A DNA stretch of 64,000 bases. Origin: Parafrankia discariae (GTDB lineage Bacteria; Actinomycetota; Actinomycetes; Frankiales; Frankiaceae). The stretch lies in assembly GCF_000373365.1 (NCBI RefSeq), contig NZ_KB891216.1, positions 1-64,000 on the forward strand, given 5' to 3'. The first letter of the stretch is position 1. Every line of letters begins with the position of its first letter. The position numbers and the translations under genes were made by a program. Below the pieces are notes generated by a model, which was not told where the DNA came from, ran no database searches, and saw only the letters and a program-made list of their open reading frames with translations. Shown here piece by piece: positions 24,893-29,245 of the stretch.

Positions 24893-25546
24893 TCAGGTAC
24901 GGGCGAGGAGCATCAGGATCATTCCCCCCGACATGACGAGTCGGGAGCCACGCGGGACGACCGGCTCCGGGAAGATCCCGATCAGTCGGGCCGCCAGCTC
25001 ACGCACGGGCGGGCGGGCCGGCGGCGCGGCGAACCGGCGCGCCGGCAGGCCGGCCAGCGCCACCAGGGCCGCCCCGCCGAAGACGACGACGCACCAGACG
25101 CCGATCGCCCCGTCGGTGCGCAGCGGCCACCCGGCGACACTGGCCGCCCCGGACATGCACGCCATCGCGGCCGCCTCGACGACGAGAAGCGCACAGCAGG
25201 ACCACATGCCCGGCGCGCTGCACCGGGGGTGGGCGACGAGCCCGACCAGCAGGGCCACCGTCAGCGCCAGGTACAGGGCGAGGAACGGCCAGGAGCCGAC
25301 GAGCCGGCCGGGGCCGGTGAACATGACCGCCATCCCCGCCGCGACCAGCACGTGCCCGCCCTCGATCCAGCCGTCCACTGCGGACGCGTGCGTATGCGGC
25401 CCGCCCGCCGCCACCGGGCGACGGAACAGGGCCCGCATCCGCCACAGGTGGATCACCGCGACGAGGATGGAGGCCACGCCGGCGGCGAGGGCCAGCGGAC
25501 CGGCCAGCGGAACCAGGCCCGCGGCCACCGGGTGGCGGTGGGTCAC
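24893..25546 (-). CDS. Multi-pass membrane protein, DUF5134-like
   Basis: 217 residues with about six hydrophobic segments. His-rich spots on the N-terminal part include 'AVIHLWRMR', 'GGPHTHASAVDGWIEGGHVLVAAGMAVMF' (read in pieces) and 'VGLVAHPRCSAPGMW'. The pattern resembles the actinobacterial DUF5134 family, with His residues that could bind a metal. The GTG start at 25546 overlaps the stop of the small Cys-rich gene (GTGA), so the two are one translational unit. No function is known to me. Confidence 0.68.
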   Translation of the reverse strand: MTHRHPVAAGLVPLAGPLALAAGVASILVAVIHLWRMRALFRRPVAAGGPHTHASAVDGWIEGGHVLVAAGMAVMFTGPGRLVGSWPFLALYLALTVALLVGLVAHPRCSAPGMWSCCALLVVEAAAMACMSGAASVAGWPLRTDGAIGVWCVVVFGGAALVALAGLPARRFAAPPARPPVRELAARLIGIFPEPVVPRGSRLVMSGGMILMLLART

Positions 25547-25776
25547 CCCCCAGCGGCGAGCTCGGCGGCCACCAGGGAGCTGATGCGGCCCGCCCGGGCC
25601 TCGTCGACGATGACTTCCAGCTGTTCGATGCTCATCTGGATCCGCTGGCCGAAGTCGTCGGTGAGGACGACCCGGCGGTCGGCCGCGGCGTCATGGTCGA
25701 TGTAGAGCTCCGGGCAGCCGCAGCTGCACTTCCCGCAGAACGTGATGACGCGATTCAGGGCGTCCGACCCGCTCAT
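25543..25776 (-). CDS. Small Cys-rich protein of unknown function
   Basis: 77 residues starting 'MSGSDALNRVITFCGKCSCGCPELYID'. Four Cys lie within nine residues (C-x2-C-x-C-x-C), followed by an acidic region and a C-terminal helix; it is probably a zinc or Fe-S binding module. I do not recognise the family. ATG 25776 is chosen because the Cys motif follows closely; the upstream extension to 25890 is low complexity. It is translationally coupled to the DUF5134-like membrane protein, which suggests a joint metal- or redox-related role. Confidence 0.65.
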   Translation of the reverse strand: MSGSDALNRVITFCGKCSCGCPELYIDHDAAADRRVVLTDDFGQRIQMSIEQLEVIVDEARAGRISSLVAAELAAGG

Positions 25777-25910: not shown

Positions 25911-26582
25911 TCAGCCGTGGCGCGCGGCGTCCGCCCAGGCCAGCACGGCGAGCACCCGGCGGTTCTCGGTGGGCTCCGGGCGCAGCTCCAGCTTGGCGAA
26001 GATGCTCGCGATGTGGGATTCGACCGTCTTCGGGCTCAGGTGCACCCGCTGGGCGATCCCACTGTTCGACAGGCCCTGGGCCATCAGTTCGAGGATGCGA
26101 CGCTCACGCTCCGACAGCCCGCTCAGGCGCTGCGACTGCGGGTAGCCGGCGAGCAGCCGCGCGGCGATGTGCGAGTCGATGACCGGCTGCCCCTCGCAGA
26201 GCCGCTCGAGGGTGTCCTTCAGGGCCTGCCGGTTGGTGATGTTGTCCTTGCGCATGTAGCCGATACCGGCGGCGCCGCCGGCGAACAGGTCGGCGGCGAA
26301 CGGGTCGTCGTCGTGCGCGGTGACCACCAGCACGCCCATCGACGGATGCGCCCGCCGCAGCGCACGGGCGGTCAGCAGCCCCTCGTTCGTCCTGGTGGGG
26401 GGCATCCGCATGTCGACGATCGCGACGTCGGGCGGGGCGTCCCGCACGACGGCGAGCAGTTCCGTCCCGGTCGGCACGGAGGCGGTGACCTCCACCCCGA
26501 TCGTCGCCAGCAGGACGCTGAGCGCCTCCCGGATGAGCCCACTGTCCTCGGCGATCGCAACACGCACACCGGATCTTCTCAC
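25911..26582 (-). CDS. NarL/FixJ-type response regulator (intact)
   Basis: 223 residues. The receiver domain has 'VAIAEDSG', phospho-Asp in 'VAIVDMRMPP', Thr in 'VLVVTAHDDD' and Lys in 'YMRKDN'. The C-terminal LuxR HTH has 'LSERERRILELMAQGLSNSGIAQRVHLSPKTVESHI' (in pieces), complete with recognition helix. It should bind DNA when phosphorylated. It starts with GTG 26582, divergent (96 bases) from the degenerate kinase gene at 26679. Those genes are its obvious partners by position, yet the kinase lacks its phospho-His, so its real phosphodonor is uncertain. Confidence 0.88.
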   Translation of the reverse strand: MRRSGVRVAIAEDSGLIREALSVLLATIGVEVTASVPTGTELLAVVRDAPPDVAIVDMRMPPTRTNEGLLTARALRRAHPSMGVLVVTAHDDDPFAADLFAGGAAGIGYMRKDNITNRQALKDTLERLCEGQPVIDSHIAARLLAGYPQSQRLSGLSERERRILELMAQGLSNSGIAQRVHLSPKTVESHIASIFAKLELRPEPTENRRVLAVLAWADAARHG

Positions 26583-26678
26583 GCTCCCCGGACGGCCCTG
26601 TCACACACCGGGATAACCCGCGCCAGTTCCGGGGGACATCCGGTAGGAACCGCGCGATCACTCGGGTAGACCTGACGG

Positions 26679-28508
26679 ATGCCGGTCGGCTCCGGGCGTT
26701 CCGCGACGGCGCGGCTCGCCGCCTCGACGACGGCCACGACGCTGCTCGTGGCCGCGGCGGCCGTTGCCGCCGGCTGGCCGTACTGGGCGGACCACCCCCT
26801 CGCCGCCGTCCCGAACGTCGGCGTGGCGGTGGCACTGGTCGTGGCCGGCCTGCTGCTGTGCGGTGACCCGGCGTCGTGGCGGTGCGGGGCGCTGCTGGCC
26901 CTCGGCGGCCTGTGCTGTCCGCTCACCTGGCTGATGAGCTGGGACACCGGGCCGCTGCCGCTGATCGCCGTCCTCGGTCAGTCCGCCTACTGGATGGTCT
27001 ACGCCTGGGGGCTGCTGCTCTACCCGGGGAACACCCTGCGCGGCCGGGCCGACCGGTGGTGGGTCACGGCCACGGCGGTGATCCTGCTGGGCGGGCAGGC
27101 GCTGACGGTCGTCATCTCCCGGCCGTCCTGGAACGGGTTCACCGACGGCGTGCTGTGGCCCGCGCCGCTGCTGGTCGGCCGGGGCCGTTTCGAGGCGGTG
27201 CTGGACGTCCTGCTGGTGCTCTACGTGCTGGTCCCGGCCGCGTTCGTGCTGCTGGCGGTCGTCCGGATCCGGGCGGCGCGCGGCCTGGAGCGGATGGTCG
27301 CCGGCCCGGTGCTGCTCTCGGCGGGCTTCGTGGCGCTGGTCGCCGCGGTGACCTACCCGGGCCTGATGGCCGAGCCGGAGCTGGGCCGCATCGAGGACGC
27401 GGTCGCGCTGCAGGGGGCCGCCTCGATCGTCGCCCCCGTCGTGCTGCTCGCCGTCGGCGCCCACCGCCGGCTGCTGCTGGCGACGACCGCCGACCGGCTC
27501 GGGCGGGAGATCGGGTCACCGACGCCGGCCTCGGTGCGGGCGGCGCTGCGGACCGTGCTGCGCGACCCGACCCTCGAGGTCTACTACCGACAGCCGGACA
27601 CGGAGGTGTTCGTGGATCTGCACGGCCGGGTGGTGGAGCTCCCCCCGGAGGACCACCGGGGGGAACGGGAGGACCGGGGGAGGCGGGAGGACCGGTCGGG
27701 CCCGGGGCGGCGCTGGTACGTCCCGGTGCGGCCGGTGGCCGGCGCCCCGGGGAGCGTCCCGGGCCCGGTCGCGGTCCTGAGCGTCGATCCCGTCCTGCGC
27801 CGCCACCGGCCGCAGGTGGCGGCGGCGGTGGTGGCGGCGGCCACGGTGCTGGAGCAGGCGCGGGCGCAGAGCCGCCTGCGCGCGCAGCTCGTCCGCCTGG
27901 GCGAGACGCGCCGGCGGGCCGCGCGCGTCCAGGCCCGCGAGTGGGCGCTCGTCGGGCGGGAGCTGGACGACGGCGTCCGCCGGCGCCTGGCCGAGCTCGC
28001 CGCGGCGGCGGGGGACGTCGCCCGGACGGTGTCCGAGCCGGCCACCGCGCGGGCCCTGGCGGAGATCGGCGCAGGGTTGCGCGCGGCGCACGGCGAGCTC
28101 GCGGACATCGTCCGGCCGGGGCATCCCGCCGTCCTGGAGCGGGACGGCCTGCTCCCGGCGCTGGAGAGTCTCGCCGCGGCGCTGGGGCTGTGCGGGCAGA
28201 ACCTGCTGTGGGTGCCCGCCGGCCGCTTCGACGTGACGGCCGAGCGGGCGATGTACGCGGCGCTCGCCGCGGCGTTGCGCACCATCGCCGCCGCGACCGC
28301 GACCGGGGCCGCGACCGGGGCCGGGGCCGCCCGGGTCGAGGTGCGTGCCGAGGGCGCGATGCTCGTCGGCGAGATCACCTCGGCGGTGCCGGTGGCCGGC
28401 GGGGTGCGGGCCGCCGCCGACCACGCCCGGGCGCTGGGCGGTTCGGTCGCCGTCCACGGTGTCGCCGGCGGCACCACGACGACCCGGGTGACGGTCCCGT
28501 GCGGGTAG
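26679..28508 (+). CDS. Degenerate NarX/DesK-type sensor kinase
   Basis: 609 residues. The N-terminal 260 residues hold about seven to eight TM helices and a linker follows. The HisKA_3-like helix reads 'EWALVGRELDDGVRRRLAEL': the ELHDG phospho-acceptor His is replaced by Asp430. In the ATPase part, the usual 'EALTN' N-box is replaced by 'AALAAALRTIAA' and no DxG box is visible, although the final 'ARALGGSVAVHGVAGGTTTTRV' keeps the fold's last strand. By sequence it is probably a pseudokinase that senses with its membrane domain and signals through binding. Its last bases overlap the next regulator by 10. Confidence 0.8.
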   Translation: MPVGSGRSATARLAASTTATTLLVAAAAVAAGWPYWADHPLAAVPNVGVAVALVVAGLLLCGDPASWRCGALLALGGLCCPLTWLMSWDTGPLPLIAVLGQSAYWMVYAWGLLLYPGNTLRGRADRWWVTATAVILLGGQALTVVISRPSWNGFTDGVLWPAPLLVGRGRFEAVLDVLLVLYVLVPAAFVLLAVVRIRAARGLERMVAGPVLLSAGFVALVAAVTYPGLMAEPELGRIEDAVALQGAASIVAPVVLLAVGAHRRLLLATTADRLGREIGSPTPASVRAALRTVLRDPTLEVYYRQPDTEVFVDLHGRVVELPPEDHRGEREDRGRREDRSGPGRRWYVPVRPVAGAPGSVPGPVAVLSVDPVLRRHRPQVAAAVVAAATVLEQARAQSRLRAQLVRLGETRRRAARVQAREWALVGRELDDGVRRRLAELAAAAGDVARTVSEPATARALAEIGAGLRAAHGELADIVRPGHPAVLERDGLLPALESLAAALGLCGQNLLWVPAGRFDVTAERAMYAALAAALRTIAAATATGAATGAGAARVEVRAEGAMLVGEITSAVPVAGGVRAAADHARALGGSVAVHGVAGGTTTTRVTVPCG

Positions 28509-29245
28509 CGGTCGCCGACGACAGCCCGCACTTCCGCACGGGCCTGCGGGCGCTGCTGACCAGCCTCGACGTGGACGTCGTCGCCGTGGTGGAGCGCGGC
28601 GCCGACCTGGTCTCGGTGGTGCTGGCCGCACCCGCCACCGCCCCGGTGGACGTCGCCCTGGTGGACATGCGGATGCCGCCCACCGGCACCGACGAGGGGC
28701 TGCGCACCGCGCGGCGGATCAAGGCGTTCCGCCCGGACACGGCGGTGCTGGTGTTCTCCGCCGACGACGAGGCCCCCTATGCCGCCGAACTGCTCGGTGC
28801 GGCGTTGCCGGGAACCGGCTACGCGCTCAAGTCCAACATCACCCGGCGCGACGTCCTGCGCTCGACGCTGAGCCGGCTGGTGCGGGGCGAGATCGTCGTC
28901 GACGGTGACGTCGCCCGCCGGCTGGCGACCCGGCCCGAGCGCGCGCCGGACCTGCTCCGGCTGGACGAGCGGGAACGCGCGGCGCTGGTGCTGGCGCTGC
29001 GCGGGCAGCCGGTCGAGGCCGCCGCGCTGGCGGGCCTGCGGGCGAAGCTGGGGCTGCCGGCCGGCCCCGACCTCACCCGCCGGCTGCTCACCTGGCTGCT
29101 CGCGCCAGTCGCCAGCCCAGCCCCAGTCCCGGCCCCCGGCCCTCGTCCGAGCCCCGGGGCTGGGCCGAGCCCCGGGGCTGGGCCCCAGCCCCGGGCTAGC
29201 TCTCCCCCGCCCCGTGACCCCCCGCGGCGTGCCGGAGCCGGATGA
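28499..29245 (+). CDS. Response regulator with degenerate DNA-binding domain
   Basis: 248 residues. The receiver is intact: 'VAVADDSP', phospho-Asp56 in 'LVDMRMPP', 'VLVFSADDE', and Lys111 in 'YALKSN'. The region after it begins like a LuxR HTH ('LDERERAALVLALRGQ') but lacks the 'GLSNxEIA...TVKTHV' recognition helices and passes into a Pro/Gly/Ala-rich tail encoded by 18-bp repeats. It is unlikely to bind DNA in the usual way. GTG 28499 overlaps the kinase stop. Its 3' end overlaps the 3' end of the convergent ALDH gene by 50 bases, so the tail may be a decayed end running into a terminator. Confidence 0.75.
   Translation: MRVAVADDSPHFRTGLRALLTSLDVDVVAVVERGADLVSVVLAAPATAPVDVALVDMRMPPTGTDEGLRTARRIKAFRPDTAVLVFSADDEAPYAAELLGAALPGTGYALKSNITRRDVLRSTLSRLVRGEIVVDGDVARRLATRPERAPDLLRLDERERAALVLALRGQPVEAAALAGLRAKLGLPAGPDLTRRLLTWLLAPVASPAPVPAPGPRPSPGAGPSPGAGPQPRASSPPPRDPPRRAGAG
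29149..29192. terminator. GC-rich repeat and hairpin at the convergent 3' ends
   Basis: Two tandem copies of an 18-base unit beginning GAGCCCCGGGGCTGG (29149-29166 and 29167-29184) each contain a 12-bp palindrome. A further hairpin GGGGCTGG/CCAGCCCC spans 29174-29192. It lies where the plus-strand regulator and the minus-strand ALDH end and can act in both directions. Confidence 0.5.

Follow-up and report, generated by a model that had tools for sequence, protein, structure and literature searches.

The window, a stretch of 64,000 nucleotides whose source genome stands close to that of Parafrankia soli NRRL B-16219, carries a kinase-like gene, here called PK (26679..28508, forward strand), followed by PRR, a response regulator without a helix-turn-helix (HTH; 28499..29245, forward strand). 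PK codes for a pseudokinase of 609 aa with eight predicted membrane helices, a small linker domain, a DHp-like two-helix region and a CA-like remnant. PRR starts with GTG at 28499, and its first 10 nt are the last 10 nt of PK, stop codon included. Divergent from both genes lies an intact NarL-type response regulator (25911..26582, reverse strand; hereafter NarL), in which Pfam recognizes REC and GerE domains, in agreement with the first-pass annotation of this DNA. The two transcription units are separated by a shared divergent promoter region (26583..26678, forward strand). It contains a candidate promoter or operator element, CCGGGATAACCC (26608..26619, forward strand), conserved in this intergenic region of 6/6 genomes, with two mismatches in G005. 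Since the element has a single exact copy in the window genome, a search for a regulon was uninformative.

The locus was compared in six Parafrankia genomes, namely the window genome and five others, including P. soli, G001, G002, G004 and G005. All six keep the gene order LTG-VOC-lipoprotein-DUF5134-Cys-NarL-(PK)-PRR-ALDH-ECH-PDHA. Beyond NarL, where they had been described before, are a small Cys-rich protein and a DUF5134 membrane protein (24893..25546, reverse strand; 55.7 bits in Pfam). The Cys-rich gene, whose conserved part spans about 25543..25776 on the reverse strand, is located upstream of the DUF5134 gene and overlaps it. Its open reading frame is conserved only from about Met39, and the protein gave no lead in Pfam, NCBIfam or PDB. 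Because this pair also occurs without the regulator module in other Frankiaceae, we regard it as a neighbour of the module and not as a dedicated part of it. The two genes are paired across several Frankiaceae genera (25543-25776 in the window; L096-L107). In genus g5 an aldehyde dehydrogenase gene lies just upstream of the pair, and in Parafrankia one that is only distantly similar lies beyond the regulator module.

PK has lost every catalytic motif of a histidine kinase. Residues 428-432 read ELDDG, so that Asp430 (codon 27966..27968, forward strand, within ELDDGVRR) replaces the phospho-His of [ED]LHDG. The alignment places D, G and D at this position in the three PK orthologues, and none of the four Parafrankia PKs has the His. 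The surroundings of the pseudo-His change with lineage: ELDDG in the window and P. soli, DLGDR in G002 and ELDSR in G005. The CA-like remnant (28122..28505, forward strand) lacks the N, G1 and G2 boxes according to the motif table and the alignment; neither an E..N..KH box, nor a D-x-G-x-G box, nor a G2 box was found. A Pfam search up to E=1 returned no family for PK, neither HisKA_3 nor HATPase, and intact relatives score 46-58 bits with HisKA_3 and 30-33 bits with HATPase_c. The motif table and the Pfam search thus bear out what the first-pass annotation had read from the letters, an Asp for the His and no clear N and G boxes. In HisKA_3 kinases the Gln of the DxxxQ motif has a phosphatase role. 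It is missing from PK in 4/4 genomes, being replaced by Arg in the window (DDGVRR versus HDGxQQ), and PK is for this reason disfavoured as a dedicated phosphatase. Common descent with HisKA_3 kinases and their overall fold are retained, as indicated by the tree, the structure model and PDB matches to DesK, and the DHp region keeps the positions R427, L429, L437 and L440, which are invariant in the kinase family.

Whole-protein dN/dS for PK was 0.46-0.56, with upper bounds below 0.7, in a counting method where saturation and GC bias leave absolute values rough and where the pairs, having branches in common, are not independent. This argues that PK still does something where it is kept, and we read the values as a constraint on its sequence, a loose one. 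The constraint is uneven along the protein: dN/dS was 0.29-0.41 in the DHp region versus 0.55-0.84 in the CA region, and the point estimate for CA was the higher one in 4/4 pairs (permutation p 0.009-0.22, with 0.009 and 0.043 in two of the four).

PK is present, without its motifs, in four of the six Parafrankia genomes and deleted in G001 and G004. In G001 it is reduced to an in-frame scar of 25 codons joining its first and last codons (MPFGLKRCRVSASGATTSWMTVRCG, then the stop). In G004 it is wholly deleted, and the start codon of PRR occupies the PK start site. Both deletions are internal to their contigs, and from their geometry PRR remains on the original promoter side of the operon. A search of G001 and G004 gave no PK orthologue at another place. 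A relocation of the gene was rejected, since the best matches to PK in these genomes share only 38 percent identity with it and are members of the separate tandem kinase pair described below. Both genomes retain the two regulators together with the Cys-rich and DUF5134 genes. The set proposed at first, with the kinase among its conserved members, does therefore not hold for the kinase.

PRR is present in 6/6 genomes with an intact open reading frame and a complete phospho-acceptor site. In the window its receiver scores 51 bits in Pfam and retains the acidic pair, the phospho-Asp (codon 28664..28666, forward strand, in VDMRMPP), the Ser and the Lys. The phospho-Asp and the Lys had been noted at first reading, and the site is now seen to be whole. 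The same reading described a LuxR domain reduced and replaced by a Pro-rich tail. The loss of the HTH stands, as Pfam finds no GerE domain in the window PRR or its five orthologues; the replacement does not. Aligned with NarL, PRR misses 13 internal residues of the HTH (IAQRVHLSPKTVE; junction at 29009..29020, forward strand), and this deletion is common to all six orthologues. If the helices are assigned as is usual for GerE domains, the missing residues cover the tail of the second HTH helix, the turn and the recognition helix as far as its middle. The Pro-rich extension (29111..29242, forward strand), which overlaps the end of the convergent ALDH gene, is a separate matter: of the six proteins, just those of the window and P. 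soli have it, the other four ending at or just after WLLxx, and it is a later addition. An AlphaFold model of PRR (mean pLDDT 88) shows the receiver, one or two short linker helices and three C-terminal helices, and in PDB it is matched best by NarL-type regulators, RcsB, NarL and VraR among them. As modelled, the three-helix part appears to be a remnant of the old DNA-binding domain.

Selection has acted differently on the two halves of PRR. On the same rough scale, receiver dN/dS was 0.24-0.42 (upper bounds 0.40-0.67) in six diverged pairs and 0.57, with a wide interval, for the window against P. soli. The C-terminal remnant gave 0.44-0.81 over seven pairs (0.45-0.81 in the six diverged ones), and its excess over the receiver had permutation p 0.003-0.098 in the diverged pairs, below 0.05 in four. 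NarL gave 0.09-0.24 in all pairs except G001-G004, which are too close. These values indicate purifying selection on the PRR receiver, relaxation of the old DNA-binding part and a far stronger constraint on NarL. A profile of the PRR C-terminal domain had no full-length match in 29 other genomes of the family; among 296 genomes sampled from the class, four of them of the genus, strong matches were confined to the genus and those elsewhere were weak and mostly partial. As to the surfaces of the receiver, the alpha1 face of PRR shares an identity of 0.32 with NarL, against 0.49 over the whole receiver, and alpha5 is nearer to NarL (0.45) than to other regulators (0.24). Such identities are compatible with a new partner and equally with pairing to NarL, and they neither prove nor exclude the latter.

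Since the His is absent from the kinase in 4/4 genomes and the HTH from the regulator in 6/6, the losses are old and shared. Their recurrence in independent genomes excludes chance or sequencing error, and with it a decay restricted to one strain. Comparison of homologous loci, which the first reading had called for, showed that the loss is shared; homologues with an intact His in the same lineage, which would have pointed to a recent decay in a single strain, were looked for and not found.

The origin of PK can be traced outside the genus. In two other Frankiaceae, G014 and G025, an orthologue of the window NarL adjoins two tandem kinases with complementary domains: Pfam recognizes HisKA_3 but not HATPase_c in K1, and HATPase_c but not HisKA_3 in K2, and the state of their motifs agrees (G014, L043 6746-10677; G025, L044 6279-9292). 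The kinases are divergent from NarL in G014, and in G025 all three genes, NarL, K1 and K2, point the same way with little space between them. A third complementary pair, by Pfam and motifs, flanks a regulator in G008 (L054 5467-10543). These pairs look like split kinases whose halves would work jointly. In the tree PK is sister to K1 of G014 and G025 (100/99), and K2 of the same genomes is the next branch (95/89). Beside PK, neither K2 nor another partner with an intact ATPase is present in the four PK-bearing genomes. Elsewhere in Parafrankia no clear K2 orthologue was found, the search returning PK, the separate tandem pair and more distant kinases. In the simplest history, K2 would have disappeared from this locus in the window lineage, and K1, presumably later, would have been stripped of its catalytic residues. 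The receiver tree groups PRR and NarL in one clade with the regulators of G014 and G025 (99/94), and a duplication of PRR inside Parafrankia had an AU p of 0.27. G014 also codes for a free-standing GerE protein of 119 aa without a receiver (L058 7167-7526), directly after a kinase and facing a convergent kinase without His.

A related tandem kinase pair occurs at the locus G000:C3, with orthologues, and has no regulator within several kilobases (L049 6909-10135; orthologues L045-L048). Its K1 is complete and its K2 lacks the CA domain. K2 of this orphan pair is mostly without the His (N, G or E instead), which is retained in G002. No NarL-like BLAST match was found in the orthologous stretches, nor any regulator gene within several kilobases of the pair in L049. 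In P. soli the corresponding K1 (L051 6500-8990) lacks the N-terminal part and the greater portion of the CA region, by decay or misassembly. One might suggest this pair as phosphoryl donor to NarL and PRR; the broken look of its K1 in P. soli weakens it as a universal donor.

It is tempting to propose that NarL and PRR form the functional core of the locus, with PRR restraining NarL and PK being a dispensable relic of a split kinase, a reading to which we give a probability of about 0.5. From one divergent promoter region, two paralogous NarL-type regulators would be expressed, a DNA-binding NarL and a phosphorylatable, DNA-blind PRR. PRR would most likely restrain NarL by receiver-receiver pairing, leaving the pair one DNA-binding arm short, or otherwise as a phosphate sink that draws off phosphoryl groups meant for NarL. 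PK, which precedes PRR in their common operon, would descend from K1, that half of a split kinase which carried the His and served the NarL orthologue; K2 is absent from the locus, and PK has lost the His, the ATP site and the phosphatase residue. What is left would be a membrane protein that the cell can dispense with, perhaps sensing a signal or tethering the regulators by binding them, and one sublineage has deleted it. Because neither gene of the locus can make phospho-His, phosphoryl groups for NarL and PRR would have to come from elsewhere, for example from the orphan kinase pair, or the regulators would work without phosphorylation. By analogy with eukaryotic Id proteins, PRR without its recognition helix might form with NarL heterodimers unable to bind DNA, as an antagonist fixed in the genus and outlasting the deletion of PK; this more specific picture is doubtful.

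A rather unlikely alternative is that PK is the working part, reading the phosphorylation of PRR (or of NarL) through its retained DHp face and signalling to another kinase or to a membrane process. It would explain the family-invariant R427, L429, L437 and L440, a DHp region with the lowest dN/dS point estimate among the compared parts of PK in 3/4 pairs (0.29-0.40) and the 10-nt overlap with PRR, which suggests coupled translation, and it has a precedent in DivL, a kinase homologue without the His that binds a receiver-only regulator (PMC4211667). It sits badly with the two genomes that deleted PK yet keep PRR, and with the variation around the pseudo-His (ELDDG, DLGDR, ELDSR). Less likely still, PRR would give its output as a receiver-only protein, by acting not on NarL but on something else, such as an enzyme or a membrane complex. 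Strict divergent pairing with NarL in 6/6 genomes and the common origin in the NarL clade argue against such a role, and no conserved target gene was identified; an intact phospho-acceptor site without a DNA-binding domain and the diverged alpha1 surface would fit it, and Rv3143, which acts on NADH dehydrogenase, and EpsW are precedents.

A slow, functionless decay, with PK and PRR both relics on the way to being lost, is improbable and disfavoured for PRR in particular. PK was indeed lost in two genomes, its CA region is weakly constrained (0.55-0.84) and the C-terminal part of PRR is relaxed in most pairs. PRR is, however, open in 6/6 genomes with its phospho-acceptor site complete, its receiver is constrained in the six diverged pairs (0.24-0.42, upper bounds 0.40-0.67), and it was kept through the very deletion that removed PK. 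Restraint of NarL by PRR remains our preferred reading. The first-pass annotation had proposed that the two degenerate proteins modulate the intact regulator: this fits the HTH-less regulator and is retained for it as the best interpretation; the kinase is no constant member of the set. Taken as a whole, that earlier reading is partly supported.

These Frankiaceae loci appear to display a stepwise loss of a two-component system, from a split kinase to a motif-less kinase and to a deleted one, with a DNA-blind regulator in every Parafrankia genome. If PRR does restrain NarL, they would show how a regulator duplicate that is broken can come to be fixed as an antagonist of the intact copy. Strains with and without the pseudokinase are also a natural set for testing which roles remain for dead kinases.

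Several known systems resemble parts of this locus. In DesK-DesR of Bacillus the kinase is catalytically complete and the regulator has an HTH. Its structures (PDB 3ehj, 3gif, 5iuk) are the nearest solved folds of the cytoplasmic part of PK and among the nearest of the PRR receiver. DivL-DivK of Caulobacter combines a kinase-like protein without phospho-His and a receiver-only regulator (PMC4211667), much as PK without phospho-His lies beside a phosphorylatable receiver without a DNA-binding domain. Unlike PK, DivL keeps the N, G1, F and G2 boxes, and its DHp-CA part tends to persist where DivK does; in our case no box is left, the proteins are of the HisKA_3/NarL-type family, the PK and PRR genes overlap in an operon and PK can be deleted. 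Rv0600c-Rv0601c divides phospho-His and ATPase between two proteins. That pair, with TcrA, is named in PMC9274095, and CheA3-CheA4 is likewise a split histidine kinase (PMC3591291). G014, G025 and G008 seem to preserve a similar, ancestral-like state, with phospho-His and ATPase on separate proteins; the locus of the window lineage differs in having no ATPase half and a His half without its His. In BldM-WhiI and RcsB-RcsA both partners carry a DNA-binding domain. These NarL/LuxR-type regulators pair with a second regulator and their output changes (PMC4125116), whereas PRR, in its putative pairing with NarL, would bring no such domain. DifD is a receiver-only phosphate sink (PMC12802240). Like DifD, PRR is a phosphorylatable receiver without an output domain, and sinks of this kind can leave another regulator less phosphorylated; unlike it, PRR derives from a NarL-type protein, retains part of its former C-terminal domain and is encoded at a locus without a working kinase. 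Each of these kinds is known by itself, be it split kinases, pseudokinase-receiver pairs, heterodimerising NarL-type regulators or receiver-only sinks. Leaving room for an earlier description beyond open-licence PMC papers, a split kinase apparently dismantled while a DNA-blind regulator became fixed seems to be a variant of them.
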